A DNA stretch of 64,000 nt from Chamaelirium japonicum (taxonomy: Eukaryota; Streptophyta; Magnoliopsida; Liliales; Melanthiaceae). This document shows positions 5,007-64,000 of this stretch, piece after piece; position 1 is the stretch's first letter; every line of letters begins with the position of its first letter. Both the position numbers and the translations under genes were made by a program. Under the pieces are notes generated by a model. The model was given only the letters and a program-made list of their open reading frames with translations, was not told where the DNA came from and did no database searches. The stretch is from the NCBI GenBank assembly GCA_947650365.1, contig CANTAL010000136.1, forward strand, positions 248,001 to 312,000, written 5' to 3'.

Positions 5007-5613
5007 TTAGAATTATAATGAATTAGAATGGATCGTACGAATGAATTAGAAAGGATCGTGCGAATGAATTAGAATGGATCGTATGAATGAATTAGAATGG
5101 ATCGTATGAATGAATTAGAATGGATCGTGCGAATGAATTAGAATGGATCGTATGATTGAATTAGAATGGATCGTATGAATGAATTCGAATGGATCGTACG
5201 AAGGAATTAGAATAGATCGTACGAATGAATTAGAATGGATACATTCGTGCGAAAGAATTAGAATGGATTGTATGAATGAATTAGAATGGATCATATAAAT
5301 GAATTAGAATGGATCGTGCGAATGAAATAGAATGGATAGTACGAATAAATTAGAATGGATTGTATGAATGAATTAGAATGGATCGTGCGAATAAATTAGA
5401 ATGGATCATACGAATGAATTAGAATGGATACATTCATGCGAATGAATTAGAATGGATCGTACGAATGAGTAAGAATGGATCGTACGAATGAAATACAATG
5501 GATCGTACGAATGAATTAGAATGGATCATGCTAATGAATTAGAATGGATCGTACAAATAAATTAGAATGAATTAGAATGGATCGTACAAATGAATTTGAA
5601 TGGATCGTACGAA
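5007..5613 (-). repeat. Satellite block R1, minus orientation
   Basis: 607 bp of inverted monomers. It enters through ATTCTAATTAGAAT and leaves through a CGTACG core followed by a plus 28-bp variant (AATGTATCC). Near-copies are at 12859-13392 and 15407-16022. Confidence 0.93.
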
Positions 5614-7498
5614 TGTATCCACTCTAATTCATTCGTACGATCCATTCTAATTCATTCGCACGATCCATTCTAATTCATTCATACGATCCATTCTAATTCA
5701 TTCGTACGATCTATTCTAATTCATTCGCACGATCCATTCTAATTCATTCATATGATCCATTCTAATTCATTCATATATTCCATTCTAATTCTTTCGCACG
5801 AATGTATCCATTCTAATTCATTCGTAGGATCCATTTAATTCTTTCGTACGATCCATTCTAATTCCTTCATACGATCCATTCTAATTCATTCATACGATCC
5901 AATCTAATTCATTCATACGATCCATTCTAATTCTTTCACACGAATGTATCCATTCTAATTCATACGTACGATCCATTCTAATTCATTCATACGATCCATT
6001 CTAATTCCTTTATACAATCCATTCTAATTCTTTCGTTCGAATGTATCCATTCTAATTCATTCGTACGATCCATTCAAATCCTTTCGTACGATCTATTCTA
6101 ATTCCATCATCCGATCCATTCTAATTCATTCATACGATCCATTCTAATTCATTCATACGATCCATTCTAATTCATTCATACAATCCATTCTAATTCTTTC
6201 ACACGAATGTATCCATTCTAATTCATACGTACGATCCATTCTAATTCAATCATACGATCCAATCTAATTCATTCATACGATCCATTCTAATTCATTTGCA
6301 CGAATGTATCCATTCTAATTCATTCTTACGATCTATTCTAATTCATTCGCACAATCTAATCTAATTCATTCGTACGAACCATTCTAATTCATTAGCACGA
6401 TCCATTCTAATTCATTCGTACGATCCATTCTAATTCATTCGCACAATCCATTCTAATTCATTCGTACGATCCATTCTAATTCATTCAAACGATCCATTGT
6501 ATTTCCTTCGTACGATCTATTCTAATTCATTCTAATTCCTTCGTACGATCCATTCTTATTCCTTCGTAAGATCCATTCTATTTCATTTGTATGATCCATT
6601 CGAATTCCTTCGTACGATCCATTCTAATTCTTTCCCATGAATGTACCCATTCTAATTCCTTCGTACGATTCATTCTAATTCATTCGTACGATCCAGTCTT
6701 TCGTATGTATCCATTCTAATTCATTCGTATGATCCATTCTAATTCCTTCGCACGATCCAATCTAATTCATTCGCACGATCCATTCAAATTCATTCGTACG
6801 ATCCATTCTATTTCATTCGAACGGTCCATTCTTACTCATCCGTACGATTCATTCTAATTCATTCATATGATCCATTCTAATTCATTCATACAATCCATTC
6901 TAATTCTTTCGGACGAATGTTTCCACTCTAATTCATTCGTACGATCCTCCCTAATTCTCTCGTATGATCTATTATAATTCATTCGCACGATTGTATCCAT
7001 TCTAATTCATTCGTATGATCCATTCTAATTCCTTCGTATGATCCATTCTAATTCATTCGTATGATCCATTCTAATTCATTCGCACGAATGTATCCATTCT
7101 AATTCATTCGTACGATCCATTCAAATTCATTCGCACGATCCATTCTAATTCATTCATACGATCCATTCTAATTCATTCGTATGATCCGTTCTATTTCATT
7201 CGCAGGATCCATTCTAATTCATTCATACGATCCATTCTAATTCATTCATACAATCCATTCTAATTCTTTTGCACGAATGTATCCATTCTAATTCATTCGT
7301 ACGATCCACCCTAATTCCTTCGTATGATCCATTCTAATTCATTCGCACGAATGTATCCATTCTAATTCGTTCGTACGATCCATTTGAATTCATTCATACG
7401 ATCCATTCTAATTTATTCATATGATCCATTCTACTTCATTTGCACGAATGTATCCATTCTAATTCTTTCTCACGATCCATTCTATTTCATTCGCACAA
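5614..7498 (+). repeat. Satellite block F2, plus orientation
   Basis: Plus monomers. This block is the left member of a long duplication whose right member is 16023-17858. It ends at CGCACAATGGATCG, the same junction sequence seen near 17855. Confidence 0.93.
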
Positions 7499-9493
7499 TG
7501 GATCGTATGATGAATTAGAATGGATCATGCAAATGAATTAGAATGGATCGTACGAATGAATTAGAATGGATCATGCGAATGAATTAGAATGGATCGTACG
7601 TATGAATTAGAATGGATACATTCATGGGAATGAATTAGAATTGATCGTACGAAGGAATTAGAATGGATCATACGAATGAAATAGAATGGATCGTACGAAT
7701 GAATTAGAATCGTACGAATGAATTAGAATGGATCATACGAATGAATTAGAATGGATTGTGCTAATAAGTAAGAATGGATCATACGAATGAAATAGAATGG
7801 ATCGTACGAATGAATTAGAATGGATCGTGCTAATAAATTAGAATGGATCATACGAATAAATTCGAAAAGATTGTGCGAATGAATTATAATAGATCGTGCG
7901 AATGAATTAGAATGGATACATTCGTGCGAATGAATTAGAATGGATCATACGAATGAATTAGAATGGATCGTATGAATGAATTAGAATGGATCGTATGAAT
8001 GAATTCGAAAGGATCGTACGAATGAATTAGAATGGATACATACGTGCGAATGAATTAGAATGGATCATACGAAGGAATTAGGGTGGATCGTACGAATGAA
8101 TTAGAATGGATACATTCGTGCGAAAGAATTAGAATGGATTGTATGAATGAATTAGAATAGATCGAAAGAATGAATTAGAATGGATCGTGAGAATGAATTA
8201 GAATGGATCGTATGAATGAATTAGAATGGATACATTCGTGCGAATAAATTAGAATGGATCGTATGAATGTGTAAGAATGGATCGTACGAATGAAATAGAA
8301 TGGATCGTACGAATGAATTAGAATGGATCGTGCTAATGAATTAGAATAGATTGTACGAATGAATTAAAATAGATTGTGCGAATGAATTAGAATGGATCGT
8401 ACGAATGAAATAGAATGGATACATTCGTGCGAATGAATTAGAATGGATCGTATGAATGAATTAGATTGGATCGTACGAATGAATTAGAATTGATCGTACG
8501 CATGAATTAGAATGGATACATTCATGGGAATGAATTAGAATGGATCATACGAAGGAATTAGAATGGATCATACGAATGAAATAGAATGGATCGTACGAAG
8601 GAATTAGAATGGATCGTACGAAGGAATTAGAATGGATTGTGCGAATGAATTAGAATGGATCGTATGAATGAATTAGAATGGATCGTGCGAATGAATTAGA
8701 ATGTATCATACGAATGAATTAGAATGGATACATTCGTGCGAAAGAATTAGAATAGATTGTATAAATGAATTAGAATGGATCGTACGAATGAATTAGAATG
8801 GATCGTGCGAATGAATTTGAATAGATCGTACGAATGAATCAGAAAGGATACATTCGTGCGAATGAATTAGAATGGATCGTACGAATGAGTAAAAATGGAT
8901 TGTACGAATGAAATAGAATGGATCGTACGAATGAATTAGAATGGATCATGCTAATGAATAAGAATGGATCGTATGAATGAATTAGAATGGATCGTGCGAA
9001 TGAATTAGAATGGATCGTACGAATGAGTAAGAATGGATCGTACGAATGAAATAGAATGGATCGTATGAATGAATTAGAATGGATCGTGCTAATGAATTAG
9101 AATGGATCATACAAATGAATTAGAATAGATTGGGCGAATGAATTAGAATGGATCGTACGAATGAATTAGAAGGGATACATTTGTGCGAATGAATTAGAAT
9201 GGATCGTATGAATGAATTAGATTAGATCGTATAAATGAATTAGAATGGATCACACGTTTGAATTAAAATGGATACATTCATGGGAATGAATTAGAATGGA
9301 TCGTACGAAGGAATTAGAATGGATCATACGAATGAAATAGAATGGATCGTACGAAGGAATTAGAATGGATCGTACGTTAAGAATGAATTAGAATGGATCG
9401 TACGTATGAATTAGAATGGATACATTCATGGGAATGAATTAGAATGGATCGTACGAAGGAATTAGAATGGATCGTACGAAGGAATTAGAATGG
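7499..9493 (-). repeat. Satellite block R2, minus orientation
   Basis: Minus monomers. Its first 600 bp matches 17859-18459. It ends in a 26-bp perfect palindrome around 9482-9507, centred on GGATCC. Confidence 0.93.
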
Positions 9494-9908
9494 ATCCATT
9501 CTAATTCATTCTAATTCATTCGTACGATCCATTCTAATTCATTCATATAATCCATTCTAATTCATTCATACGATCCAATCTAATTCATTCATATGATCCA
9601 TTCTAATTCATTCGCACGAATGTATCCATTCTAATTCATTCGTACGATCCATTCTAATTCATACGCATGATCCAATCTAATTCATTCGCACGATCCAATC
9701 TAATTCATTCGCACGATCCAATCTAATTCATTCGCACGATCCATTCTAATCCATTCTAATTCATTCGCACGATCCATTCTAATTCATTCGTACGATCCAT
9801 TCTAATTCATTCATACGATCCATCCTAATTCATTCATACGATCCATTCTAATTCATTCGCACGATCCATTCTTATTTATTCATACGATCCATTCTAATTC
9901 ATTCATAC
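9494..9908 (+). repeat. Satellite block F3, plus orientation
   Basis: 415 bp of plus monomers between two orientation switches. It exits at CATACGAATTAG. Confidence 0.92.
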
Positions 9909-10302: not shown

Positions 10303-12858
10303 GATCCATTCTAATTCCTTTGTACGATCCATTCTAGTTCATTCCCATGAATGTATCCATTCTAATTCATACGTACGATCCATTCTAATTCATTTATGAT
10401 CCAATCTAATTCATTCATACGATCCATTCTAATTCATTCGCACGAATGTATCCCTTCTAATTCATTCGTACGATCCATTCTAATTCATTCGCCCAATCTA
10501 TTCTAATTCATTTGTATGATCCATTCTAATTCATTTGCACGATCCATTCGAATTCATTCGTACGATCCATTCTATTTTATTCGTACGATCCATTCTTACT
10601 CATTCGTATGATCCATTCTAATTCATTCGCATGATTCTAATTCATTCATACGATCCATTCTTATTCATTAGCACGATCCATTCTAATTCATTCGTACGAT
10701 CCATTCTATTTCATTCGTACAATCCATTCTTACTCATTCGTACGATCCATTCTAATTCATTCACAAAATCTATTCTAATTCATTCATACGATCCATTCTA
10801 ATTCGTTAGAACGATCCATTCTAATTCATTCGTACGATCCATTCTATTTTATTCGTACGATCCATTCTTACTTATTCGTATGCTCCATTCTAATTCATTC
10901 GCACGAATGTATATATTCTAATTCATTCGTATGATCCATTCTAATTCATTTGCACAATCTATTCTAATTCATTCATACGATCCATTCTAATTCATTCGTA
11001 CGATCCATTCTAATTCATTTGCATGATCCATTCTAATTCATTCATATGATCCATTCTAATTCATTCGTACAATCCATTCTAATTCTTTCGCACGAATGTA
11101 TCCATTCTAATTCATTCGTACGATCCACCCTAATTCCTTCGTATGATCCATTCAAATTCATTCGAACGAATGTATCCATCCTAATTCATTTGTACGATCC
11201 ATTCAAATTCATTCATACGATCCACTCTAATTCATTCATACGATCCATTCTAATTTATTCGCACGAATGTATCCATTCTAATTCATTCATACGATCCATT
11301 CTAATTCATTCGCACAATCTATTCTAATTCATTCGTACGATCTATTCTAATTCATTCGCACGATCCATTCTAATTCATTTGCACGATCCATTCTAATTCA
11401 TTCATACAATCCATTCTAATTCTTTTGCACAAATATATCCATTCTAATTCATTCGTGCGATCCATTCTAATTCCTTCGTAAGATCCATTATAATTCCTTC
11501 GTTCGATCCGTTCTATTTCATTCGTATGATCCATTCTAATTCCATCGTACGATCCATTCTAATTCATTCCCATGAATGTATCCATTCTAATTCATATGTA
11601 CGATCCATTCTAATTCATTCCCATGAATGTATCCATTCTAATTCATACGTACGATCCATTCTAATTCATTCATGCGATCCAATCTAATTTATTCATAAGA
11701 TCCATTCTAATTCATTCCCACGAATGTGTCCATTCTAATTCATTCGTACGATCCATTCTAATTCATTCACACAATCTATTCTAATTCATTCGTACGATCC
11801 ATTCTAATTCGTTAGCACGATCCATTCTAATTCTTTCGTACGATCCATTCTATTTCATTCGTACTATCCATTCTTACTCATTCGAACGATCCGTTCTAAT
11901 TCATTCGCACGAATGTATCCTTTCTAATTCATTCGTACGACCCATTCTAATTCATTCGCGTGATCCATTCTAATTCATTCATACGATCCATTCTAATTCA
12001 TTCGTACGATCCATTCTAATTCATTCGCACGATCCATTCTAATTCATTCGTACGATCCATTCTATTTCATTGATATGATCCATTCTAATTCATTCACACG
12101 AATGTATCCATTCTAATTCATTCGTACGATCCATTTTAATTCATTCGCACGATCCATTCTAATTCATTAGCACGATCCATTCTAATTCATTAGCACGATC
12201 CATTCTAATTCATTCGTACGATCCATTCTATTTTAATCGTACGATCCATTCTTACTCATTCGTACGATCCATTCTAATTCATTCGCACGAATGTATCCAT
12301 TCTAATTCATTCGTACGATCCATTCTAATTCATTCGCACGATCCATTCTAATTCATTCATACGATCCATTCTAATTCATTTGTACGATCCATTCTAATTC
12401 ATTCGCACGAACCATTGTAATTCATTTATATGATCCGTTCTATCTATTCTAATTCATTCGTACGATCCATTCTAATTCATTCACACGATCCATTCTAATT
12501 CATTCATACGATGCATTCTAATTTATTTGTACGATCCATTCTAATTCATTCGCACGAATGTATCCATTCTAATTCATTCACACGATCCATTCTATTTCAT
12601 TCATACGATCCATTCTTACTCATTCGTACGATCCATTCTAATTCATTCGCACGAATGTATCCATTCTAATTCATTCATACGATCCATTCTAATTCATTCG
12701 CACGATCCATTCTAATTCATTCATACGATCCAATCTAATTCATTCATACGATCCATTCTAATTCATTCGCACGAATGTATCCATTCTACTTCATTCGTAC
12801 GATCCATTCTTATTCATTCACACAATCTATTCTAATTCATTCGTACGATCCATTCTAA
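10303..12858 (+). repeat. Satellite block F4, plus orientation
   Basis: About 2.6 kb of plus monomers. Its right part (to the switch at 12859) aligns with 4,4xx-5,006 at a constant offset of 7852. It exits at the same TTCTAATTAGAA palindrome as F1 and F5. Confidence 0.93.
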
Positions 12859-13392
12859 TTAGAATTAGAATGAATTAGAATGGATCGTATTAATGAATTA
12901 GAATAGATTGTGCGAATGAATTAGAATAAATCATACAAATGAATTAGAATGGATCATGCTAATGAATTAGAATGGATCGTGCGAATGAATTAGAATGGAT
13001 CGTATGAATGAATTCGAATGGATCGTACGAATGAATTAGAATAGATCGTACGAATGAATTAGAATGGATACATTCGTGCGAAAGAAGTAGAATGGATTGT
13101 ATGAATGAATTAGAATGGATCGTATGAATGAATTAGAATGGATCGTGCGAATGAATTAGAATGGATAGTACGAATGAATTAGAATGGATCGTATGAATGA
13201 ATTAGAATGGATCGTGCGAATGAATTAGAATGGATCATACGAATGAGTAAGAATGGATCATACGAATGAAATAGAATGGATCGTACGAATGAATTAGAAT
13301 GGATCGTGCTAATGAATTAGAATGGATCATACAAATGAATTAGATTGAATTAGAATGGATCGTACAAATGAATTAGAATGGATCGTACGAAT
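12859..13392 (-). repeat. Satellite block R4, minus orientation
   Basis: 534 bp, a related copy of R1 and R5. It exits at GATCGTACGAATGTATCC. Confidence 0.92.
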
Positions 13393-15406
13393 GTATCCAT
13401 TCTAATTCATTCGTACGATCCGTTCTAATTCATTCGCACGTTCCATTCTAATTCATTCATACGATCCATTCTAATTCATTCGTATGATCTATTCTAATTC
13501 ATTCGCACGATCCATTCTAATTCATTCATAAAATCCATTCTAATTCATTCATACAATCCATTCTAATTCTTTCGCACGAATGTATCCATTCTAATTCATT
13601 CGTACGATCCATTCTAATTATTTCGTACGATCCATTCTAATTCCTTCATACGATCCATTTTAATTCCTTCGTATGATCTAGTCTATTTCATTCATATGAT
13701 CCATTCTAATTCCTTCGTGCGATCCATTCTAATTCATTTCCACGATTGTATCCATTCTAATTCATACGTACGATCCATTCTAATTCATTCATACGATCCA
13801 ATCTAATTCATTCATACGATCCATTCTAATTCATTTGCACGAATGTATCCATTCTAATTCATTCGTACGATCCATTCGAATTCATTCGCACAATCTATTC
13901 TAATTCATTCGTACGATCCATTCTAATTCATTCGTACGATCCATTCTAATTCATTCGCACGATTCATTCTAATTCATTCGTACGATCCATTCTAATTCGT
14001 TCATACGATCCATTCAAATTCCTTCATAAGATCCATTCTAATTCATTCTAATTCCTTCGTACGATCCATTCTTATTCCTTCGTGCGATCCATTCTATTTC
14101 ATTCGTATGATCCATTCTAATTCCTTCGTACGATCCATTCTAATTCTTTCCCATGAATGTACCCATTCTAATTCCTTCGTACGATTCATTCTAATTCATT
14201 CGTACGATCCATTCTTTCGTATGTATCCATTTTAATTCATTCGTACGATCCATTCTAATTCTTTCGCACGATCCAATCTAATTCATTCGCATGATCCATT
14301 CTAATTCATTTGTACTATCCATTCTATTTCATTCGTACGGTCTATTCTTACTCATTCGTACGATTCATTCTAATTCATTCATATGATCCATTCTAATTCA
14401 TTCATACAATCCATTCTAATTCTTTTCGACGAATGTTTCCATTCTAATTCATTCGTACGATCCTCCCTAATTCCTTCGTATGATCCATTCTAATTCATTC
14501 GCACGAATGTATCCATTCTAATTCATTCATATGATCCATTCTAATTCCTTCGTACAATCCATTCTAATTCATTCGTATGATCCATTCTAATTCATTCGCA
14601 CGAATGTATCCATTCTAATTCATTCGTACGATCCATTCAAATTCATTCGCATGATCCATTCTAATTCATTCATACGATCCAATCTAATTCATTCGTATGA
14701 TCCGTTCTATTTCATTCGCAGTATCCATTCTAATTCATTCATACGATCCATTCTAATTCATTCATACAATCCATTCTAATTCTTTCGCACGAATGTATCC
14801 ATACTAATTCATTCGTACGATCCACCCTAATTCCTTCGTATGATCCATTCTAATTCATTTGCACGAATGTATCCATTCTAATTCATTCGTACGATCCATT
14901 CTAATTCATTCGCATGATCCATTCTAATTCATTCATACGATCCATTCTAATTCATTTGTACGATCCATTCTAATTCCTTCGCACGAACCATTGTAATTCA
15001 TTCATACAATCCATTCTATCCATTCTAATTCATTCGTACGACCCATTCTAATTCATTCACACGATCCATTCTAATTCATTCATACGATCCATTCTAATTC
15101 ATTTGTATGATCCATTCTAATTCATTCGCACGATCTATTCTATTTCATTCATACGATCCATTCATACTCATTCGTAGGATCCATTCTAATTCATTCGCAC
15201 GAATGTATCCATTCTAATTCATTTGTACGATCCATTCTAATTCATTCGCATGATCCATTCTAATTCATTCATACGATCCAATCTAATTTATTCATATGAT
15301 CCATTCTAATTCATTCGCACGAATGTATCCATTCTAATTCAATTGTACGATCCATTCTAATTCATTCACACAATCTATTCTAATTCATTCGTACGATCCA
15401 TTCTAA
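13393..15406 (+). repeat. Satellite block F5, plus orientation
   Basis: Plus monomers duplicating about 2942-5006 at an offset of 10,451 narrowing to 10,400 through small monomer-sized indels. It exits at TTCTAATTAGAA. Confidence 0.92.
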
Positions 15407-16022
15407 TTAGAATTAGAATGAATTAGAATGGATCGTACGAATAAATTAGAATAGATTTTGCGAATGAATTAGAATAGATCGTACGAATGAATTAGAATGA
15501 ATCATGCTAATTAATTAGAAAGGATCGTGCGAGTGAATTAGAATGGATCGTATGAATGAATTAGAATGGATCGTATGAATGAATTCAAATGGATCGTACG
15601 AAGGAATTAGAATAGATCGTACGAATGAATTAGAATGGATACATTCGTGCGAAAGAATTAGAATAGATTGTATGAATGAATTAGAATGGATCATATGAAT
15701 GAATTAGAATGGATCGTGCGAATGAATTAGAATGGATAGTACGAATGAATTAGAATGGATCGTATGAATGAATTAGAATGGATCGTGCGAATGAATTAGA
15801 ATGGATCATACGAATGATTTAGAATGGATACATTCATGCGAATGAATTAGAATGGATCGTACGAATGAGTAAGAATGGATCGTACGAATGAAATACAATG
15901 GATCGTACGAATGAATTAGAATGAATCGTGCTAATGAATTAGAATGGATCGTACAAATGAATTATAATGAACTAGAATGGATCGTACAAATGAATTAGAA
16001 TGAATTAGAATGGATCGTACGA
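15407..16022 (-). repeat. Satellite block R5, minus orientation
   Basis: 616 bp, copy of R1. It exits through CGTACGAATGTATCC. Confidence 0.92.
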
Positions 16023-17858
16023 ATGTATCCTCTCTAATTCATTCGTACGATCCATTTTAATTTATTCGCACGATCCATTCTAATTCATTCATACGATCCA
16101 TTCTAATTCATTCGTACGATTTATTCTAATTCATTCGCACGATCCATTCTAATTCATTCATACGATCCATTCTAATTCATTCATACAATCCATTCTAATT
16201 CTTTCGCACGAATGTATCCATTCTAATTCATTCGTACGATCCATTCTAATTCGTTCGTACGATCCATTCTAATTCTTTCATACGATCCATTCTAATTCAT
16301 TCATACGATCCATTCTAATTCATTCATGCGATCCAATCTAATTCATTCATACGATCCATTCTAATTCTTTCACACGAATGTATCCATTCTAATTCATACG
16401 TACAATCCATTCTAATTCATACGTACGATCCATTCTAATTCCTTCATACAATCTATTCTAATTCTTTCGCACGAATGTATCCATTCTAATTCATTCGTAC
16501 GATACATTCTAATCCTTTCGTACGATCCATTCTAATTCCATCATACGATCCATTCTAATTCATTCATACGATCCATTCTAATTCATTCATACAATCCATT
16601 CTAATTCTTTCACACGAATGTATCCATTCTAATTCATACGTACGATCCATTCTAATTCATTCATACGATCCAATCTAATTCATTCATACGATCCATTCTA
16701 ATTCATGTGCACGAATGTATCCATTCTAATTCATTCTTACGATCTATTCTAATTCATGCGCACAATCTATTCTAATTCATTCGTACGATCCATTCTAATT
16801 CATTAGCACGATCTATTCTAATTCATTCGTACGATCCATTCTAATACATTCTAATACACTATAATACATTCGTATGATCTATTCTAATTCATTCTAATTC
16901 CTTCGTACGATCCATCCTTATTCCTTCGTACGATCCATTCTATTTCGTTTGTATGATCCATTCTAATTCCTTCGTACGATCCATTCTAATTCTTTCCCAA
17001 GAATGTACCCATTCTAATTCCTTCGTACGATTCATTCTAATTCATTCGTACGATACAGTCTTTCGTATATATCCATTCTAATTCATTCGTACGATCCATT
17101 CTAATTCCATCGCACGATCCAATCTAATTCATTCGCACGATCCATTCTAATTCATTCGTACGATCCATTCTATTTCATTCGTACGGTCCATTCTTACTCA
17201 TCCGTATGATTCATTCTAATTCATTCATATGATCCATTCTAATTCATTCATACAATCCATTCTAATTCTTTCGGACGAATGTTTCCATTCTAATTCATTC
17301 GTACGATCCTCCCTAATTCCCTCGTATGATCTATTCTAATTCATTCGCACGATTGTATCCATTCTAATTCATTCGTATGATCCATTCTAATTCCTTCGTA
17401 TGATCCATTCTAATTCATTCGTATGATCCATTCTAATTCATTCGCACGAATGTATCCGTTCTAATTCATTCGTACGATCCATTCAAATTCATTCGCACGA
17501 TCCATTCTAATTCATTCATACGATCCATTCTAATTCATTCGTATGATCCGTTCTATTTCATTCGCAGGATTTATTCTAATTCATTCATACGATCTATTCT
17601 TATTCATTCATACAATCCATTCTAACCCTTTTGCACGAATGTATCCATTCTAATTCATTCGTACGATCCACCCTAATTCCTTCGAATGATCCATTCTAAT
17701 TCATTCGCACGAATGTATCCATTCTAATTCATTCGTACGATCCATTTGAATTCATTCATACGATCCATTCTAATTTATTCATACGATTCATTCTACTTCA
17801 TTCGCACGAATGTATCCATTCTAATTCTTTCTCACGATCCATTCTATTTCATTCGCAC
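16023..17858 (+). repeat. Satellite block F6, plus orientation
   Basis: Copy of F2. It exits at CGCACAATGGATCG, as F2 does. Confidence 0.92.
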
Positions 17859-18459
17859 AATGGATCGTACGATGAATTAGAATGGATCATGCAAATGAAT
17901 TAGAATGGATCGTACGAATGAATTAGAATGGATCATGCGAATGAATTAGAATGTATCGTACGTATGAATTAGAATGGATACATTCATGGGAATGAATTAG
18001 AATTGATCGTACGAAGGAATTAGAATGGATAATACGAATGAAATAGAATGGATCGTACGAATGAATTAGAATCGTACGAATGAATTAGAATGGATCATAC
18101 GAATGAATTAGAATGGATTGTGCTAATGAGTAAGAATGGATCGTACGAATGAAATAGAATGGATCGTACGAATGAATTAGAATGGATCGTGCTAATAAAT
18201 TAGAATGGATCGTACGAATAAATTAGAATAGATTGTGCGAATGAATTATAATGGATCGTGCGAATGAATTAGAATGGATACATTCGTGCGAATGAATTAG
18301 AATGGATCATACGAATGAATTAGAATGGATCGTATGAATGAATTAGAATGGATCGTATGAATGAATTCGAAAGGATCGTACGAATGAATTAGAATGGATA
18401 CATACGTGCGAATGAATTAGAATGGATCATACGAAGGAATTAGGGTGGATCGTACGAAT
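17859..18459 (-). repeat. Satellite block R6, minus orientation
   Basis: Copies the first 600 bp of R2. It stops at a GGGTGGATCGTACGAATG junction where R2 simply continues, so this edge is a rearrangement breakpoint. Confidence 0.92.
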
Positions 18460-46063: not shown

Positions 46064-46080
46064 TCCCACAGACGGCGCCA
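46064..46080 (-). other. Primer-binding site
   Basis: Minus-strand TGGCGCCGTCTGTGGGA begins three bases after the 5' LTR end. This PBS form is widespread in Tat-type plant elements. It fixes the element polarity and identifies 46084-46723 as the 5' LTR. Confidence 0.88.
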
Positions 46081-46083
46081 AAC

Positions 46084-46723: not shown

Positions 46724-46728
46724 GTACG
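46724..46728. repeat. Target-site duplication GTACG, right copy
   Basis: Identical to 39989-39993, followed in phase by ATCCATTCTAATTC of the plus satellite. Confidence 0.95.
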
Positions 46729-50048: not shown

Positions 50049-50840
50049 CACGATCCAATCAAATTCATTCGCACGAATGTATCTATTCTATTTCATTCGT
50101 ACGATGCATTCTTACTCATTCGTACGATCCATTCTAATTCATTCGCACGAATGTAACCATTCTAATTCATTCGTATGATCCATTCTAATTCATTCGCACA
50201 ATCCATTCTCATTCATTCAAACGATCCATTCTAATTCTTTTGCACAAATGTATCCATTCTAATTCCATCATACGATCCATTCTAATTCCTTCGTACGATC
50301 CATACTATTTCGCACGATCCATTCTAAGTCATTCGTACGATCCATTCTATTTCGCACGATCCATTCAATTTCGCACGATCTATTCTTATTCATTCATACG
50401 ATCCACTCTAATTCATTCGCACGATCTATTCTAATTCATTCCTACGAGTTATTCTAATTCATTCGTACGATCCATTCTAATTCATTCGTACGATCCTTTC
50501 TAATTTATTCGCATGATCCATTGTAATTCATTCATACGATCCATTCTAATTCATTCATACAATCCATTCTAATTCTTTCGCAAATGGATCCATTATAATT
50601 CATTCGTACGATCAATTCTATTTCATTCGTACGATCCATTCTTACTCATTCGTACGATCCATTCTAATTAATTTGCACGATCCATTGTAATTCATTCATA
50701 TGTTCCATTCTATTTCATTCGTACGATCCATTCTTACTCATTCGTGCGAATTCATTCTAATTCATTCGCACGATCCATTCTAATTCATTCGCACGATCCA
50801 TTCTAATTCATTCATACGATCCATTCTAATTCATTCGTAC
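50049..50840 (+). repeat. Satellite block F20, plus orientation
   Basis: Contains shortened monomers (CTATTTCGCACGATCC, about 50306-50385) that also occur in F21. It exits at TTCGTACGAA, a 10-bp palindrome, as F22 does. Confidence 0.92.
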
Positions 50841-52932
50841 GAAGGAATTAGAATGGATTGTGCGAATGAATTAGAATGGATCGTACGAATGAATTAGAAT
50901 CGATACATTCGTGCGAATGAATTAGAATGGATCGTATGAATGAATTAGATTGGATCGTATGAATGATTTAGAATGGATCGTACGTATGAATTTGAATGGA
51001 TACATTCATGGGAATGAATTAGAATGGATCGTACGAAGGAATTAGAATGGATCGTACGAAGGAATTAGAATGGATCGTACGAATGAATTAGAATGGATAC
51101 ATTCGTGCAAAAGAATTAGAATGGATTGTATGAATGAATTAGAATGGATCGTACAAATGAATTAGAATGGATCGTGCGAATGAATTAGAATGGATCGTAT
51201 GAATGAATTAGAATGGATCGTGCGAATGAATTAGAATGGATCGTATGAATGAATTCGAATGGATCGTATGAATGAATTCGAATAGATCATATGAATGAAT
51301 TAGAATGGATACATTCGTGCGAATGAATTAGAATGGATCGTTTGAATGAGTAAGAATGGACCGTACGAATGAATTAGAATGGATCATATGAATGACTTAG
51401 AATGGATCATGCGAATGAATTAGAATGGATCGTACGAATGAATTAGAATGGATACATTTTTGCGAATGAATTAGAATGGATCATACGAATGAGTAAGAAT
51501 GGATCGTACGAATGAAATAGAATGGATCGTACGAATGAATTAGAATGTATCGTACGAATGAATTCGAATGGATTGTATGAATGAATTAGAATGTATTAGG
51601 AATTAGAATGTATCGTATGAATGAATTCGAATGGATCGTACGAATGAATTAGAATGGATACATTCGTGCGAATGAATTAGAATGGATCATGCGAAGGAAT
51701 TAGGGTGGATTTTACGAATGCATTAGAATGGATACGTTCGTGCGAAAGAATTAGAATGGATTGTATGAATGAATTAGAATGAATCGTATGAATGAATTAG
51801 AATGGATCGTATGAATGTATTAGAATGGATCGTATGAATGAATTAGAATGGATCGTATGAATGAGTAAGAATTGATCATACGAATGAAATAGAATGGATC
51901 GTACGAATGAGTAAGAATGGATCGTACGAATAAAATAGAATGGATCGTACGAATGAAATAGAATGGATCGTGCTAATGAATTGGAATGGATCGTACATAT
52001 GAATTAGAATAGATTGTGTGAATGAATTAGAATGGATCGTACGAACAAATTAGACTGGATACATTCATGCGAATGAATTAGAATGGATCGTATGAATGAA
52101 TTAGATTTGATTGTATGAATGAATTAGAATGGATCGTACCTATGAATTAGAATGGATACATTAATGGGAATGAATTAGAATGGATCGTATGAAGGAATTT
52201 GAATGGATCATACGAATGAAATAGAATGGATCGTACGAAGGAATTAGAATGGATCGTACGAAGGAATTAGAATGGATCGTACGAAGGAATTGGAATGGAT
52301 ACATTCGTGCAAAAGAATTAGAATGGATCGTGCGAATGAATTAGAATGGATCGTACGAATGAATTAGAATAGATTGTGCGAATGAATTAGAATGGATCGT
52401 ACTTATTAATTAGAATGGATATATTCGTGCGAATGAATTAGAATGGATCGTATGAATGAATTAAAATGGATCGTATGAATGAATTCGAATGGATCGTACG
52501 AATGAATTAGAATGGATACATTCGTGCGAATGAATTAGAATGGATCATACGAAGGAATTAGGGTGGATCGTACGAATCAATTAGAATGGATACATTCGTG
52601 CGAAAGAATTAGAATGGATTGTATGAATGAATTAGAATGGATCGTATGAATGAATTAGAATAGATCGTGCGAATGAATTTGAATGGATCGTACGAATGAA
52701 TTAGAATGGATCGTATAAATGAATTAGAATGGATCGTACGAATGAATTAGAATGGATCGTACGAATGAGTAAGAATGGATCGTACGAATGAAATAGAATG
52801 GATCGTACGAATGAATTAGAATGGATCATGCTAATGAATTAGAATGGATCGTACGAATGAATTAGAGTAGATTGTGCGAATGAATTAGAATGGATTGTAC
52901 GAATAAATTAGATTGGATCGTATGAATGAATT
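50841..52932 (-). repeat. Satellite block R20, minus orientation
   Basis: About 2.1 kb. Contains the irregular word GTATTAGGAATTAG near 51593, which has counterparts near 54290 and 63390. It exits at GAATTAGCATGTTC. Confidence 0.92.
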
Positions 52933-53673
52933 AGCATGTTCTATTCTAATTCATTCACACGAATGTATCTATTCTATTTCATTCGTACGATCCATTCTTA
53001 CTCATTCGTACGATCCATTCAAATTCATTCGCACGAATGTATCCATTCTAATTCATTCGTACGATCCATTCTAATTCAATCGCACGATCCATTCTAATTC
53101 ATTCAAACGATCCATTCTAATTCTTTTGCACGAATGTATCCATTCTAATTCATTCATACGATCCATTCTAATTCCTTCGTACGATCCATTCTAATTCCTT
53201 CGTACGATCCATTCTATTTCGCACGATCCATTCTAAGTCATTCGTACGATCCATTCTATTTCGCACGATCCATTCTAATTCCTTTGTACGATCCATTCTA
53301 TTTTGTACGATCCATTCTATTTCGCACGAATGTATCCATTCTAATTCCTACGTACGATCCATTCTAATTCCTTAGTACGATCCATTCTCTTTCGCACGAT
53401 CCATTCTAAGTCATTCGTACGATCCATTCTAATTCATTCGCACGATCTATTCTTATTCATTCTAATTCTAATTCTTTCGCACAAATGGATCCATTCTAAT
53501 TCATTCGTACGATCCATTCTTACTCATTCGTACGATCCATTCTAATTCATTCGCACGATCCATTCTAATTCATTCATATGATCCATTCTATTTTATTTGT
53601 ACGATCCATTCTTACTCATTCGTGTGAATTCATTCTAATTCATTCGCACGATCCATTCTAATTCATTCATAAG
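52933..53673 (+). repeat. Satellite block F21, plus orientation
   Basis: Copy of F20, with an expanded run of shortened CTATTTCGCACG monomers (53215-53400). It exits at CATAAGATCGTATG, a near-palindrome. Confidence 0.92.
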
Positions 53674-55686
53674 ATCGTATGAATGAATTAGATTGGATCG
53701 TATGAATGATTTAGAATGGATCTTACGTATGAATTAGAATGGATACATTCATGGGAATGAATTAGAATAGATTGTACGAAGGAATTAGAATGGATCGTAC
53801 GAAGGAATTAGAATGGATCTTACGAATGAATTAGAATGGATACATTCGTGCAAAAGAATTAGAATGGATTGTATGAATGAATTAGAATGGATCGTACAAA
53901 TGAATTATAATGGATCGTGCGAATGAATTAGAATCGATCGTATGAATGAATTAGAATGGATCGTATGAATGAATTCGAATGGATCGTATGAATGAATTAG
54001 AATGGATACATTCGTGCGAATGAATTAGAATGGATCGTACGAATGAATAAGAATGGATCGTACGAATGAATTAGAATGGATCGTATGAATGACTTAGAAT
54101 GGATCATGTGAATGAATTAGAATGGATCGTACGAATGAATTAGAATGGATACATTCGTGCGAATGAATTAGAATGGATCGTACGATTGAGTAAGAATGGA
54201 TCGTACGAATGAAATAGAATGGATCGTACGAATGAATTAGAATGCATCGTACGAATGAATTCGAATGGATCGTACGAATGAATTAGAATCTTTTAGGAAT
54301 TAGAATGGATCATATGAATGAATTCGAATGGATCGTACGAATGAATTAGAATGGATACATTCATGCGAATGAATTAGAATGGATCATAAGAAGGAATTAG
54401 GGTGGATCGTACGAATGAATTAGAATGGATACGTTCGTGCGAAAGAATTAGAATGGCTTATATGAATGAATTAGAATAGATCGTATGAATGAATTAGAAT
54501 TGATCGTATGAATGGATTAGAATGGATCGTATGAATGAATTAGAATGGATCGTATGAATGAGTAAGAATGGATCGTACGAATGAAATAGAATGGATCGTA
54601 CGAATGAGTAAGAATGGATCGTACGAATAAAATAGAATGGATCGTACGAATGAATTTGAATGGATCGTGCTAATGAATTGGAATGGATCGTAGGAATGAA
54701 TTAGAATAGATTTTGTGAATGAATTAGAATAGAGCGTACGAATGAATTAGAATGGATACATTCATGCGAATGAATTAGAATGGATCGTATGAATGAATTA
54801 GATTGGGTCGTATGAATGAATTAGAATGGATCGTACCTATGAATTAGAATGGATACATTCATGGGAATGAATTAGAATAGATCGTACGAAGGAATTAGAA
54901 TGGATCATACGAATGAAATAGAATGGATCGTATGAAGGAATTAGAATGGATCGTACGAAGGAATTAGAATGGATCGTACGAAGGAGTTAGAATGGATACA
55001 TTCGTGCAAAAGAATTAGAATGGATTGTATGAATGAATTAGAATGGATCGTGCAAATGAATTAGAATGGATCTTGCGAATGAATTAGAATGGATCGTACA
55101 AATGGATTAGAATAGATTGAGCGAATGAATTAGAATTGATCGTACGAATGAATTAGAATGGATACATTCGTGCGAATGAATTAGAATGGATCGTATGAAT
55201 GAATTAGAATGGATCGTATGAATGAATTCGAAGGGATCGTACGAATGAATTAGAATGGATACATTCGTGCGAAAGAATTAGAATGGATTGGATGAATGAA
55301 TTAGAATGGATCGTATGAATGAATTAGAATGGATCGTGCGAATGAATTTGAATGGATCGTACGAATGAATTAGAATGGATCGTATGAATAAATTAGAATA
55401 GATCGTACGAATGAATTAGAATGGATCGTACGAATGAATTACAATGGATACATTCGTGTGAATGAATTAGAATGGATCGTACGAATGAGTAAGAATGGAT
55501 CGTACGAATGAAATAGAATGGATCGTACGAATGAATTAGAATGGATCGTGCTAATGAATTAGAATAGATTGTACGAATGATTTAGAATGTATCGTACGAA
55601 CGAATTAGAACGGATCGTATGAATGAATTATAATAGATCGTGCGAATGAATTAGAATGGATCGTACGAATGAATTAGAATGGATAC
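53674..55686 (-). repeat. Satellite block R21, minus orientation
   Basis: Copy of R20 at an offset of about 2.7 kb. Interrupted at 55686 by the composite LTR element; the same orientation resumes at 59656. Confidence 0.92.
55682..55686. repeat. Target-site duplication GATAC, left copy
   Basis: GATAC precedes TGTCACGCCCC and recurs at 59656-59660 after GATGTTACA. Collapsing the element restores GAATGGATACAATCGTGC, a normal 28-bp-variant minus monomer. Confidence 0.92.
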
Positions 55687-57865
55687 TGTCACGCCCCAGA
55701 AATCTGAAGACCGACCCCTGGGGTGTGAGGTGAGAGAAAGAAGAGGGTTTTGGGACTGGTCAATTAATTACACCAATTTGGGTTCTCACAGGGCTTCTAC
55801 GCTCTCTAATATGAAAAACAAGAAGGAGGAAGAAACAAGAGGGGAATCTTTTAAATTTAATTTTTCAAAAAACATTTTTATTAAAAAGGAAAGAAGAGAA
55901 ATATCAATAGAGATAAGACATTATCTAATCAACTCGACCTTCAAAAGTCATATCCTCTCAGAATGTGTGACCAGTCGGTGCCACTACATACCGACAGGGG
56001 TCTATCTGAGGGAGCACGAAGCTCAAGCCTCCTACGGCTAGCCAAGTGGTCTCATCCACGCCCTAACACTCAGGTGCACCAATCTAGGGTTCCTATCTAC
56101 AAGGTTAATCAATTTAGTCATTTATATGTATTTATATTTTCATCATGATCTATCCTAGGCTTGGGGCCTTGAGGAGAGACCTACCCAAAAGAATTCAGCT
56201 GGAACCATTGCAACTACAACCATAGAATACAACTAACTAATAAGAACTCTTATTCCAATAAAATTACCATGTCTGAAGAGAAAAGACTACAAGACGGACA
56301 TACTAAACAGAAAGGTAAAGCTGCAACTCCAACTCCGCCTCTGGACTCCTACTGCTACTCCTGAGCCTCTGAACCTGCACTGAGCCTACTCGTGGGAAAG
56401 AGTAGCCCCCAATAGGAAATTGGGAGATTAGCCAAATTAATGGCTAGTGACATCCTAATAGCCTTTAATAATATGAGACAACTAATCTTAATAAATTAAG
56501 ATGAGATCTATCAGTTCTAGTAAAATCAAAGTTTGCAGAATGATACCTAAACCTATCAGTAGTTTATATTCACATGCAATTCCTACTGTCACTAGGTTAT
56601 CTAACATGAAGTTCATTCAATGTTCTACAGCATTAAAGAATAAATTAAATAAGATGTTCAGATAAAGTCACGAAGTCATCATGTAAACAGTCACTCAATT
56701 CTAAATTCATATATAGATTAAACACACACTATCAAAATGTGAACCCCGGATATTTTGTTCATCCTGCCCCCGGTCGGGCATTACTATAGGGCCTTTTATT
56801 TCGATATAGAGGGCCAACTCTCTCGCCGTGCATCCACCAACACCATGCACTAGTCACCCAGATGATCATAAGGGGTTTCCCGTCTTTCACGGTGGAGCTC
56901 TACCGCCCAACTTGCTTTACTATGGGGACTTCAACTCCCCGGGACGGGGTTGCTAGGCCAATCCCTACTCAAGGGCACCTCCTATTGGCTTTACCACAAC
57001 CCTTGCCCGTGACCCCTAACCTACTTAACTTCAGCTGTACGCGCAGGGTGGTTCACGGCCCTTACGCGCACGGGGTCCCTACCCTTTAACCAGGTAGATT
57101 CACATATAACATCTTTCAACATATACAATGAAGCAATAAAAAGTCTATTAATGTTTAACCATTTTCAACAATTTACCCCTGGTTCCGTACTCCTCTCGCA
57201 ACCAATGCAACATAATAAATCAGTAAAGTAAAACACTCATCCCAGTGACCCGTGTGCGAGGGTTGCCATACTCCTCTCAGGAGGGTGGGTCCCGATAATT
57301 ATTAGTTATTCAATTTAATGATTAATTTAAGGGAATCCTAATTACGGTGTCCATGCATACAATCAAAAGCAATCATTATTATTATTCTATTAATATTTTA
57401 AGCAAGCGTCGCCGAACTCGCGACTCCGCATGCAAGGCGGGGTCCACTTGACCACATGCGACGATGCCCGGCGGGGCCCGCATGCAGTGTCATGGACACC
57501 TACCCTTAGTCATTCTCATTTCCCACTATTAAAGACCATGCAAGGGTAGTAGATGTCACCTGGTTGTCGATCGCACACGACTCCTGCTAGCTGCCTCTGA
57601 TCTGTCTCCGCTGGATCACCACGATCAAGGTCTGATAATATGCACAGCTCTATATCACAATGCTATCGATTAAAACAAAAGAATCTACGTTGAGGGTTCT
57701 ATGCCAAGGATAGTCGGGCACCCTCGATAGGGGACCAACATTGAGTCGACAGCACGTAAATCCGTGCGACTGAAGAACTTGAATCTAAACAATACTAGGC
57801 CAATCAAGTAATTAGAAGTTAAACCTACTCATTGAATCGGGCTCGAAGAACCCTTTCCGATGGTT

Positions 57866-58240
57866 CCAGTTTCGCTGGAATCCGACTTCGGTCGAATGGC
57901 TTCGGGTCAAACCACGTAGAACCGGTAAAACCGATCGCATGGTTGGTTCACTAGGGTAGAAGAGGTTCTAGGGTTATATTCTGGGTTTGAAAGGTAGGAC
58001 TCAAAGTTCTGAGCACAATGCCGCTAGTTTCGTCCGAATCCGAGTTCGGACGATGAAACGGCGGTCAAACCACGGTACTGCGATAATATCGGGTCCAAGG
58101 ATAAAACAGGGTATTAAACAGTATAAATACTATTCTAGACTATGACCAACAGGTAGTATTTTCCGAGCCGGTCGAAATGGCGCTGGTTTCGTCCAATTCC
58201 GAGTTCGGACGGAGAAATGGCAGTCGAACCAAAATCGTCT
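57866..58240. repeat. Three diverged ~157-bp repeats with hairpin-forming cores
   Basis: GTTTCG(T/C)... units begin near 57869, 58027 and 58185. The second core is GTCCGAATCCGAGTTCGGAC, a 7-bp perfect inverted repeat (GTCCGAA / TTCGGAC). The third is the same with a small mismatch. Each is followed by GGCGGTCAAACCACG or a variant. Spacing is about 158 bp. Confidence 0.75.
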
Positions 58241-58311
58241 GGTTCACGGGTCTGGTTCAGGTGAACCAGACCGGTTCACTGCATGGGTTGGGTCTGCTGG
58301 GTCGGGTCGGG

Positions 58312-58359
58312 TCTGCAGTGCAAAGCCGGGTCGGGTATGCAGTGCAAAGCCGGGTCGGG
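58312..58359. repeat. 24-bp tandem duplication in GGGTCGGGT-rich tract
   Basis: TGCAGTGCAAAGCCGGGTCG occurs at 58314 and 58338 within a run of GGGTCGGGT words (58298-58380). Confidence 0.85.
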
Positions 58360-58419
58360 TTCAGGGGTTAAAAGGATCGGGTCTGGGGTTAACTTAAACC
58401 TAGGAAGTTACTGTTTTGC

Positions 58420-58890
58420 CCCCCCCCATGTTCATCTTCCCCACAAGACCGAAACCATCACGGGGGGGGATTCCTGCGCGTCGGCGGCCGGCGGGAGGGG
58501 CGGCCTGGAGCGCCGGCGAGCGCTCGGCCGGCCTCTCCCGCACCACCCCTACGGAGGAGGCGCGGTGGGAGGCGGCCGGAGCCCTCGTCGGAGCCCCAAA
58601 AGCTTGGACGGTGGGGGGGGGGGGGTCGCGCGGGGTTTGAAGTAACGGCGGCCGGTGGTGGTGCGCCGAGGAGGGCTCGGTTGCGGCAGCGGTGTCCGCC
58701 CGTGCGGGCCGCGGCAAGGGAGGAGGAAGGGGGTCGCGGAGGAGGATGGGAAGAGGAGGCCGGGGTGGCTGACCTGCGGGGTGACGGCGTGCTCGCCGGG
58801 GCTCCGGCGAGGGGCGGGTGGGGTGTCCGATCTCTTCTCCTTCTCCATCTTCGGCTCTCGCTCTCTCTCTCTCTGCATCCCAAGAGAGAG
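58420..58890. other. GC- and CpG-rich low-complexity tract
   Basis: Strongly GC-rich with C and G homopolymers (58420-58429, 58462-58470, 58613-58624) and a CT/GA-rich end (58848-58893). Overlapping open frames on both strands are compositional by-products of the GC content. It resembles a plant CpG-rich promoter/first-exon region or an LTR promoter, but nothing identifies a gene. Confidence 0.6.
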
Positions 58891-58904
58891 AGACGCGTTT
58901 TAAA

Positions 58905-59106
58905 ACAATATCTTGTGTTTGGAGGCTCACCACCTTTCCTGCCAAGACGCGTTTTAAAACCGTGCGCCGCTACGGATTTCGTAAGAACTCCGTAGTTAAG
59001 CGTGCTCGGGCGAGAGTAGTACCAGGATGGGTGACCTCCCTGGGAAGTTCTCGTACGGGCACGGGCAAAGCGGACAATATCTTGTGTGTTTGGGGCGGAT
59101 GTTACA
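58905..59106 (+). repeat. 5' LTR remnant of the Cassandra-like unit (202 bp)
   Basis: Identical by eye to 59454-59655 (offset 549). Ends GGATGTTACA and is followed after AAA by the PBS. The U3 part found in the 3' LTR (59188-59453) is missing here. The word GACGCGTTTTAAAAC occurs at 58892 and again near 58948, so one copy straddles the break. Confidence 0.9.
58984..59054 (+). other. 5S rRNA-derived sequence in the 5' LTR remnant (not a functional rRNA gene)
   Basis: AGAACTCCGTAGTTAAGCGT and GTACCAGGATGGGTGACC match the 3' two-thirds of plant 5S rRNA, including box A (AGTTAAGCGTGCT), the intermediate element and box C (GGATGGGTGACCTCC). The 5' third of 5S is absent, and CTCCCTGGGAAG has an extra base relative to the usual plant sequence. 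Retained as a possible RNA polymerase III promoter. Confidence 0.9.
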
Positions 59107-59187
59107 AAATGGTATCAGAGCCGGTTCTCCTCGGGATGGGGGGGGTCTAACCCTACACGAGGACGTGTAGCCCTAAGGGGGGTGGAT
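59107..59187 (+). other. Cassandra-like internal region: PBS, spacer and polypurine tract
   Basis: Only 81 bp. PBS TGGTATCAGAGC at 59110-59121 (complementary to the 3' end of initiator tRNA-Met), a non-coding spacer, and polypurine tract AAGGGGGGTGGAT at 59175-59187 directly before the 3' LTR start TGTGACG. No protein is encoded, as expected for a TRIM. Confidence 0.9.
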
Positions 59188-59340
59188 TGTGACGACCAAG
59201 ATCCAATAGGCCAATAGCCAAGAGCCAAGACTCCTGAGGCGGGAATGCCAAGATGGATGAGGTGAGGTGATGTGAGGTGAGGTGTACAAGGCCACGAGTT
59301 AGCCCCACATCGCCTGGAGAGAAGGAGATCCTGAGCTACT

Positions 59341-59347
59341 TATATAA
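59341..59347 (+). promoter_or_regulatory. Candidate TATA box in the 3' LTR
   Basis: TATATAA in the context CTACTTATATAATTTCCCC. A start about 30 bp on would lie near 59375, upstream of the tRNA-like and 5S-like segments. Confidence 0.5.
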
Positions 59348-59381
59348 TTTCCCCTCCTAAACATAGAAGACGCGTTCTAGG

Positions 59382-59435
59382 TGGTTCGATGGTAACCATG
59401 CTAGTGCAAAACCTTGAGGTTGAGGGTTCGAGTAC
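59382..59435 (+). promoter_or_regulatory. tRNA-like A/B-box pair (candidate pol III promoter)
   Basis: TGGTTCGATGG (59382-59392) is one base from the A-box consensus TRGYNNARNNG. GGTTCGAGTAC (59425-59435) is one base from the B-box consensus GGTTCGANTCC. The spacing is tRNA-like. No acceptor stem is apparent, so it is not called a tRNA gene; a SINE head is possible. Confidence 0.45.
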
Positions 59436-59532
59436 CCAAGAGACCAATAGAGGACAATATCTTGTGTTTGGAGGCTCACCACCTTTCCTGCCAAGACGCG
59501 TTTTAAAACCGTGCGCCGCTACGGATTTCGTA

Positions 59533-59603
59533 AGAACTCCGTAGTTAAGCGTGCTCGGGCGAGAGTAGTACCAGGATGGGTGACCTCCCTGGGAAGTTCT
59601 CGT
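59533..59603 (+). other. 5S rRNA-derived sequence in the 3' LTR (not a functional rRNA gene)
   Basis: Identical copy of 58984-59054 with the same box A, intermediate element and box C. Confidence 0.9.
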
Positions 59604-59655
59604 ACGGGCACGGGCAAAGCGGACAATATCTTGTGTGTTTGGGGCGGATGTTACA

Positions 59656-61879: not shown

Positions 61880-62584
61880 ACTATCCATTCTAATTCATTC
61901 GCATGAATGTATCCATTCTATTTCATTCATATGATCCATTCTTACTCATTCGTACAATCCATTCTAAATCATTCGCACGAATGTATCCATTATAATTCAT
62001 TCGTACGATCCATTCTAATTGATTCGCACGATCCATTATAATTCCTTCATACGATCTATTCTAATTCCTTCATACGATCCATTCTAATTCATTCATACTA
62101 TCCATTCTAATTCTTTCGCACGATCCATTCTAAGTCATTCGTACGATCTATTCTAATTCATTCGCACGATCTATTCTTATTCATTCGCACGATCCACCCT
62201 AATTCATTCGCACGATCTATTCTAATTCATTCGTACGAGCTATTCTAATTCATTCGCACAATCCATTCTAATTCATTCATACGATCTATTCTAATTCATT
62301 CATACAATCCATTCTAATTCTTTCACACGAATGGATCCATTCTAATTTATTCGTACGATCTATTTTATTTCATTCGTACGATTCATTCTTACTCATTCAT
62401 ACGATCCATTCTAATTCATTCGCACGATCCATTCTAATTCATTCTTACGATCATTTTATTTCATTCGTACGATCCATTCTTACGCATTCGTGCGAATTCA
62501 TTCTAATTCATTCGCACGATCCATTCTAATTCATTCGCACGATCCATTCTAATTGATTCATACGATCCATTCTAATTCATTCGT
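61880..62584 (+). repeat. Satellite block F22, plus orientation
   Basis: 705 bp, copy of F20. It exits at the same TTCGTACGAAGGAATTAG junction as F20. Confidence 0.92.
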
Positions 62585-64000
62585 ACGAAGGAATTAGAAT
62601 GGATTGTGCGAATGAATTAGAATGGATCGTACAAATTAATTAGAATGGATACATTCGTGCGAATGAATTAGAATGAATCGTATGAATGAATTAGATCGGA
62701 TCGTATGAATGAATTAGAATGGATCATACATATGAATTAGAATGGATATATTTATGGGAATGAATTAGAATGGATCGTACGAAGGAATTAGAATGGATCG
62801 TACGAAGGAATTAGAATGGATCGTACGAATGAATTAGAATGGATATATTCGTGGAAAATAATTAGAATGGATTGTATGAATGAATTAGAATGGATCGTAC
62901 AAATGAATTAGAATGGATCGTGCGAATGAATTAGAATAGATCGTACGAATGAATTAGAATAGATTGTGCGAATGAATTAGAATGGATCGTACGAATGAAT
63001 TAGAATGGATACATTCGTGCGAATGAATTAGAATGGATCGTATGAATGAATTAGAATGGATTGTATGAATGAATTCGAATGGATCATACGAATGAATTAG
63101 AATGGATACATTCGTGCGAATGAATTAGAATGGATCGTACGAATGAGTAAGAATGGATCGTACGAATGAATTAGAATGGATCGTATGAATGAATTAGAAT
63201 GGATCGTGCGAATGAATTAGATTGGATCGTACGAACGAATTAGAATGGATATATTCGTGCGAATGAATTAGAATGGATCGTATGAATGAGTAAGAATGGT
63301 TCGTACGAATGAAATAAAATGGATCGTACGAATGAATTAGAATGCATCATACAAATGAATTCGAATGGATCGTATGAATGAATTAGAATGTATTAGGAAT
63401 TAGAATGGATCGTATGAATGAACTCGAATGGATCGTACGAATGAATTAGAATGGATACATTCGTGCGAATGAATTAGAATGGATCATACGAAGGAATTAG
63501 GGTGGATCATACGAATGAATTAGAATGGATACATTCGTGCAAAAGAATTAGAATGGATTATATGAATGAATTAGAATGGATCGTATGAATGGATTAGAAT
63601 GGATCGTATGAATGAATTAGATTGGATCGTACGAATGAGTAAGAATGGAACGTACGAATGAAATAGAATGGATCGTACGAATGAGTAAGAATGGATCACA
63701 CGAATGAAATAGAATGGATCATACGAATGAATTAGAATGGTTCGTGCTAATGAATTAGAATGGATCGTACGAATGAATTAGAATAGGTTGTGCGAATGAA
63801 TTAGAATGGATCGTACGAATGAATTAGAATAGATACAATCGTGCGAATGAATTAGAATGGATCGTATGAATGAATTAGATTGGATCGTATGAATGAATTA
63901 GAATGGATCGTACGTATGAATTAGAATGGATACATTCATGGGAATGAATTAGAATGGATCGTACGAAGGAATTAGAATGGATCGTACGAATGAAATAGAA
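62585..64000 (-). repeat. Satellite block R23, minus orientation (continues past the window)
   Basis: Copy of R20 including GTATTAGGAATTAG near 63390. Runs off the window end. Confidence 0.92.

Follow-up and report, generated by a model that had tools for sequence, protein, structure and literature searches.

Chionographis japonica is a holocentric lilioid whose centromeric satellites are Chio1 and Chio2 (PMC10264360, PMC12722358). In the excerpts of these papers considered here, the two units are 23 and 28 bp long and differ by 5 bp plus one substitution (PMC10264360), forward and reverse arrays are mixed, dyads and transposable-element insertions are present, and "microhomology-mediated gene conversion" is named as one possible route of array expansion (PMC10264360, PMC12722358). 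The same excerpts cover the mixture and the dyads without the sequence at the switches of direction; in the current study we read these joins in one window (the whole stretch of 64,000 nucleotides that was analysed), since their make-up is a clue to how direction changes form. Among the literature matches listed, the excerpts of which already describe alternating Chio orientation and dyads, none examined the bases shared where Chio arrays switch, and what appears to be new is the make-up of the joins. The Chama arrays of Chamaelirium, according to the excerpted text, hold the 9-bp word TTCGTACGA yet keep one orientation (PMC12722358), which means that more than the dyad is needed.

The reshuffling of centromeric satellites is under debate, with unequal exchange, break-induced replication and microhomology repair as the contending routes in the portion of PMC8997354 at hand. 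In-register joins leave no trace, whereas a strand switch always does, and a frequently flipping satellite therefore offers many readable joins. Microhomology-mediated rearrangement is described for maize CEN10, which, like the window, has short shared sequence at the joins of plant-centromere rearrangements, including those of an inversion; however, the events covered in that excerpt are one large inversion and others involving retroelements, whereas the window holds about 27 joins inside one satellite (PMC8997354). The macro-dyad satellites of Tribolium also change orientation every few kilobases and have duplicated inversion sites, but their major satellite, as excerpted, shows two predominant, highly conserved inversion-site types and near-symmetric subarrays, in contrast to the many different joins of the window (PMC13081366). 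Joins at microhomology and complex patchworks likewise feature in the excerpted account of the MMBIR model, which was proposed for human copy-number change (PMC2621351) and whose pathway may apply to the window by analogy. Inverted joins, finally, are shared with fold-back inverted duplications, as the excerpt of PMC3907307 describes them.

In the window, satellite made of 23-bp and 28-bp units covers about 52.4 kb of the 64 kb (HMM segmentation), and the array (1-64000, with no one strand assigned) is broken by insertions at 28052-28984, 39994-46723 and 55687-59655. We counted 1,753 complete units of 23 bp, 301 of 28 bp and 142 others. The consensus of the 1,753 complete 23-bp units is TCCATTCTAATTCATTCGTACGA, and the 28-bp unit differs from it by five additional bases and one substitution. 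Unit lengths, the difference between the units, the word TTCGTACGA within the 23-bp unit, dyads, the intermixing of forward and reverse arrays and transposable-element insertions all agree with Chio1 and Chio2 as excerpted (PMC10264360, PMC12722358). The assignment is made on unit lengths, unit difference, TTCGTACGA and mixed orientation rather than on the full letters of the monomer, the 9-mer being, among the matches listed, the only monomer letters that a text search found, in PMC12722358. On these grounds the satellite is very likely part of a Chio1/Chio2-type centromeric array of Chionographis japonica or a very near relative. One stretch of it, at 20930-21020, is unusually degenerate, with several phase breaks within 90 bases.

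Strand switches and their copies

Strand switches were called with a two-strand profile HMM at switch priors from 1e-3 to 1e-6. The count was 41 at 1e-4 and 1e-3 and 37 at 1e-5 and 1e-6, the four extra switches bounding a reversed piece of 27 bp that is present in two copies. The switches announced by the earlier note are thus present in the sequence, although its figure of about 45 is somewhat high. The direction of the satellite flips about every 1.3 kb. When switches were merged by the similarity of their flanks, the 41 fell to 27 joins, of which the remaining 14 are further copies; the classes were set by hand from these similarities, so that the figure of 27 is partly a matter of judgement, the least certain merged class being 23201/52938/61880 (87.5-92.5% similar), and stricter merging, with join type added, gives 24. 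Ten of the joins recur in two or three copies and 17 occur once in the window. The copies of recurrent joins differ by about 2-16% over 120 bp, and such joins consequently predate the duplications that spread them. To say that the copying strand was repeatedly flipped, with each switch as an event, is therefore to over-count.

Switches have been copied together with their flanks. A 5.2-kb block at 2934-8098 recurs at 13383-18460 with 93.9% identity and carries three switches along (flank comparison and self-BLAST), and self-BLAST revealed other repeats besides. We also considered BLAST end-points that fall on switches as a sign of copied modules, but rejected this, because alignments within a run of one strand must end at a switch in any case. 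When 155 tiles of 300 bp were matched against the rest of the window, the best match lay in a run of opposite orientation for 58, where 76.5 would be expected if the orientations were fully mixed; flips are thus frequent relative to homogenisation, and mixing is incomplete.

The palindromes that the earlier note had placed at switches were, for the most part, found again on re-reading. Class A, a plus-to-minus join, has the 14-bp palindrome ATTCTAATTAGAAT at 5000-5013, with copies at 12852-12865 and 15400-15413 (switches 5007, 12859 and 15407; 94-96% alike over 120 bp). Class D runs from minus to plus through a 26-bp palindrome centred in GATC (9482-9507); its further copies at 10303 and 27430, with palindromes of 8 and 4 bp, are 88-93% alike, and the former looks like an inverted copy of the join at 9494. 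A 22-bp palindrome centred in AATT marks a plus-to-minus switch at 19677-19698, the 16-bp GATCGTACGTACGATC a minus-to-plus switch at 20389-20404, and the 10-bp TTCGTACGAA the plus-to-minus class H at 50834-50843, with a copy at 62580-62589 (switches 50840 and 62584; 97% alike). CGATCG is present at 23068-23073, and the palindrome at 39440 extends to 16 bp (39432-39447), including the 14-mer noted earlier. That reported at 27903 is likewise present, but as the 20-bp ATCCATTCTATAGAATGGAT at 27891-27910 rather than as an 18-mer; here a plus-to-minus switch has no shared bases, and no other switch is as good a candidate for a join that is blunt and symmetric. The near-palindromes proved weak, with 6 bp at 33956, 4 bp at 53674 and 8 bp at 10303. 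Nor do all of these sites count as independent cases, given that 5007/12859/15407, 50840/62584 and 9494/10303/27430 are each copies of one join.

Other joins lie on the 8-bp word TCGTACGA. They include class B, a minus-to-plus join at 5605-5612 with copies at 13383-13390 and 16015-16022, where the number of bases fitting both strands is 11 or 7 depending on the template, as well as the minus-to-plus switches at 18450-18457 and 24364-24371. Elsewhere, short reversed pieces interrupt a run: a 31-bp plus piece within a minus run at 25872-25902 (classes E1 and E2; copy at 30099-30129), and the 27-bp minus piece within a plus run at 36844-36870 (classes F1 and F2; copy at 39444-39470). Reversed pieces of 31 bp and 27 bp are of the size left by short template switches.

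Shared bases and palindromes at the joins

As a measure of microhomology we took the number of bases at the join that fit the repeat on both strands, using two alternative 28-mer templates and relying on a null of 1,500 random joins with HMM-called join points and on a positive control, in which a true 4 bp was read as a median of 3 and a true 8 bp as a median of 13, an overestimate of long homologies that affects the null too. The 27 joins share a mean of 3.91 bp compared with 1.05 bp in the random joins (P 1.9e-6), or 3.06 compared with 0.93 with the other template (P 3.1e-7), a roughly three- to fourfold enrichment. At least 2 bp are shared at 19 of the 27 joins and at 22-23% of random ones, and at least 11 bp at 5 of the 27 (first template) and at 0.7% of random ones. 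The strict set of 24 joins gives means of 2.94 and 2.53 (resampling P 7.5e-5 and 1e-5). These figures lend support to the earlier suggestion that strands were exchanged, or templates switched, at short inverted homologies. The switch at 18457 is a case in point: an unswitched relative of its left arm exists at 8060-8125, whose agreement with 18426-18491 runs through GGATCGTACGAATG, and just after this shared word the two part, one remaining in minus repeat and the other entering plus repeat. Seven of the 27 joins share no bases (six with the other template), among them that at 27900 with its 20-bp palindrome; class A reads as 0, and was so counted, owing to a second break about 5 bp from the join, although AATT is shared by eye.

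Comparison of the palindromes with random joins, as the earlier note had proposed, did reveal an excess, but one to which about a third of the joins contribute. The null consisted of 8,000 joins assembled at random, head to head or tail to tail, from pieces of the window itself and called with the same HMM; 7,998 were callable, with a palindrome of at least 10 bp in 8.3% and of at least 14 bp in 4.0%. Among the 27 joins, a palindrome of at least 10 bp is present in 9 when the longest copy of each class is taken, 7.3 as a class average and 6 when the shortest is taken, with 2.2 expected; at 14 bp or more the corresponding figures are 6, 4.8 and 4, with 1.1 expected. Binomial P values are 2e-4 and 6e-4 for the longest copies at the two thresholds and 0.02 at both for the shortest. 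The claim that switches fall on palindromes therefore holds for some joins, while 18 of the 27 are without a palindrome of at least 10 bp in any copy.

The palindromic look of joins made at words that both strands share follows from the consensus. Words of at least 4 bp that the 23-bp consensus has in common on both strands are TCGTACGA, GATC and AATT, all three of them self-complementary, and so any join located there is bound to read as a palindrome of the word's length or more. When random joins were matched for homology (using earlier shared-base values, with the null taken at the true join point), 5.3 of 27 would be expected to have a palindrome of at least 10 bp, compared with 9 by longest copy (P 0.05) and 7.3 by class average (P 0.26). 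Across thresholds of 8-20 bp, P was 0.05-0.29 for the longest copy and 0.26-0.58 for the class average; for the longest copy at 8-16 bp it was 0.05-0.10, just short of a significant excess. Palindromes in the eight classes with fewer than 2 shared bases measure 14, 10, 6, 4, 20, 4, 12 and 4 bp, and the long ones outnumber the random-join expectation; of these, the 14 is class A, and the 10 occurs in a single copy only, about 10 bp off the join. We take the palindromes to be mostly, perhaps wholly, the footprint of short homology.

Same-strand phase breaks with a shift of at least 3 number 108, of 37 types. Counted once per type, they share 1.03 bases compared with 0.88 in random joins, that is, without excess, whereas weighting by copies gives 2.45, above random. 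Such visible breaks may represent another class of event than the switches, because in-register recombination with long homology leaves no mark. The commonest (32 of the 108) is a 13-base loss at a repeated CATTC inside the monomer, yielding CATTCTAATTCATTCTAATTC; it is found at 3615, 6527, 9506, 36184 and other sites and is probably one variant spread by copying.

How the joins may have formed

We consider it probable that the switches arose by microhomology-mediated template switching (MMBIR-like) or end joining. On this reading, oppositely oriented pieces of the array would be joined illegitimately at a few bases common to the two strands, either by template switching at microhomology during break repair or by microhomology-mediated end joining, and the joins would afterwards be multiplied as the array underwent ordinary duplication. 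The shared-base excess, the lack of recently folded-back arms and the copying of switches with their flanks all support this; the enzyme pathway behind the joins is something that we infer. Counting against it are the same-strand breaks, with no excess per type, the six or seven of 27 joins that share nothing, the palindromes by longest copy, which come close to exceeding what homology predicts, the single orientation of Chama arrays despite TTCGTACGA, the judgement involved in merging to 27 classes, and an arm similarity that leans slightly high.

The last of these features would suit snap-back replication, in which a 3' end, nascent or broken, folds onto a short inverted word and copies itself into a palindrome whose arms may have any length, with long arms that have since decayed. 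In fold-back inverted duplications the arms are inverted copies of each other. Arms were compared over 120 bp and over up to 400 bp, the latter for 33 of the 41 switches, since at eight a neighbouring switch leaves less than 90 bp. Percentiles against random opposite-strand pieces do lean high (mean 0.633, KS P 0.009), class A lies at about 0.87-0.98 across its copies, and the unobstructed arms of 19689 reach the 96th percentile in the 120-bp comparison; the excess of palindromes over random joins and the 20-bp palindrome without shared bases at 27891-27910 also favour folding back. However, the class average exceeds the 95th percentile in none of the 23 testable classes, scores per base go no higher than about 0.70 compared with a median of 0.85 in fold-backs simulated at 6% divergence, and the arms of the perfect blunt case at 27900 are not inverted copies, standing at the 10th percentile. 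Of 100 simulated fold-backs, 100, 100, 96, 62, 23 and 4 exceeded the 95th percentile at 3, 6, 9, 12, 15 and 18% divergence, respectively. Recognisably inverted arms, unlike in fold-back inverted duplications, are thus found at 0 of 23 joins, with a power of at least 96% up to about 9% divergence, which makes recent fold-backs unlikely at these joins; the statement holds for recent events, older ones falling outside the reach of the test. The snap-back replication put forward in the earlier note is accordingly not supported, and we regard it as improbable. An explanation that we rate a little lower still is that the dyad TCGTACGA extrudes as a hairpin and breaks, causing the switches, with homology at the join being secondary. 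A hairpin between neighbouring monomers is predicted from an 8-bp dyad in the excerpted text of PMC10264360, and TCGTACGA may be that dyad; 5 of the 27 joins (B, 18457, 24371, F1 and H) lie on it. On the other hand, the window contains 596 copies of the word, the majority of joins are at other places, the commonest same-strand break lies at the CATTC repeat, away from the dyad, and Chama arrays carry the dyad without alternating, as far as the excerpt of PMC12722358 goes.

To see whether a segment had been inverted in place between a pair of inverted words, or inserted cleanly as a reversed copy, we examined the phase of the segments, joined their flanks and searched the rest of the window. 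Outer phase is kept within 2 bp in 13 of 37 segments, with 8 expected by chance (copies not merged), and 24371-25227 looks like a clean insertion. Both gaps of an inversion fall within 2 bp, however, in a single segment of 37 (52938-53674), about 1.7 being expected by chance, and re-inverting restored both joins in 0 of 32 segments, five being too short and the flanks of six holding another switch. Of 37 segments, one gave joined flanks that looked contiguous, roughly what chance would yield with the 5% threshold applied, in a test with a median penalty of 7.5 for contiguous controls and 35.75 for random joins and a power of about three quarters per join. For the majority of switches the picture is thus one of a patchwork of single joins, unless one of the two ends was overwritten later, and we think in-place inversion and clean insertion both very unlikely. 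An assembly or chimeric-read artefact might be suspected from the 17 joins that occur once in the window; yet ten recur in two or three copies with the divergence given above, the near-perfect arms expected from fold-back chimeras were not seen, and the C. japonica assembly, if the window is drawn from it, used HiFi libraries of 14-26 kb mean length (PMC10264360, as excerpted). We give an artefact hardly any credence, and we infer that the single-copy joins, too, are real in the plant.

Within microhomology-mediated joining, one tentative possibility, to which we would give appreciably less weight than to the joining itself, is that the dyad words of this holocentromere satellite, including the 8-bp TCGTACGA, serve as inverted microhomologies that join array copies head to head. 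Orientation mixing might then arise through mutation, as a side effect of a monomer that is short and rich in dyads, instead of being a structure maintained by selection. If the shared-base excess holds genome-wide, Chio arrays would provide a direct test bed for centromere repair pathways, and the proposal that the dyads are centromere signals would need to be set against the possibility that they act as sites of rearrangement.

Insertions within the array

A tRNA scan of the window found none, and a 37-base pattern searched in viral contigs gave no matches. The insertion at 39994-46725 is a minus-oriented LTR retrotransposon whose two LTR copies are 96.6% alike. It has a gag match (Pfam Retrotrans_gag) in 44393-45919 and a 22/44-bp minisatellite of the GAGCTTGG type at about 40820-42780, and it sits in the satellite with a 5-bp target duplication, GTACG. 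A LINE-like element is represented by its 3' end at 28052-28984, which has an RNase H-type domain (Pfam RVT_3), a poly-A tail and AGAATGG on both sides. The insertion at 55687-59655, with GATAC at both flanks, is possibly a nested or composite element. It holds two 5S rRNA-like stretches 549 bases apart (58947 and 59496) that adjoin sequence starting TGTCACGCCCC, a paired arrangement that we take to be as in Cassandra-type elements.
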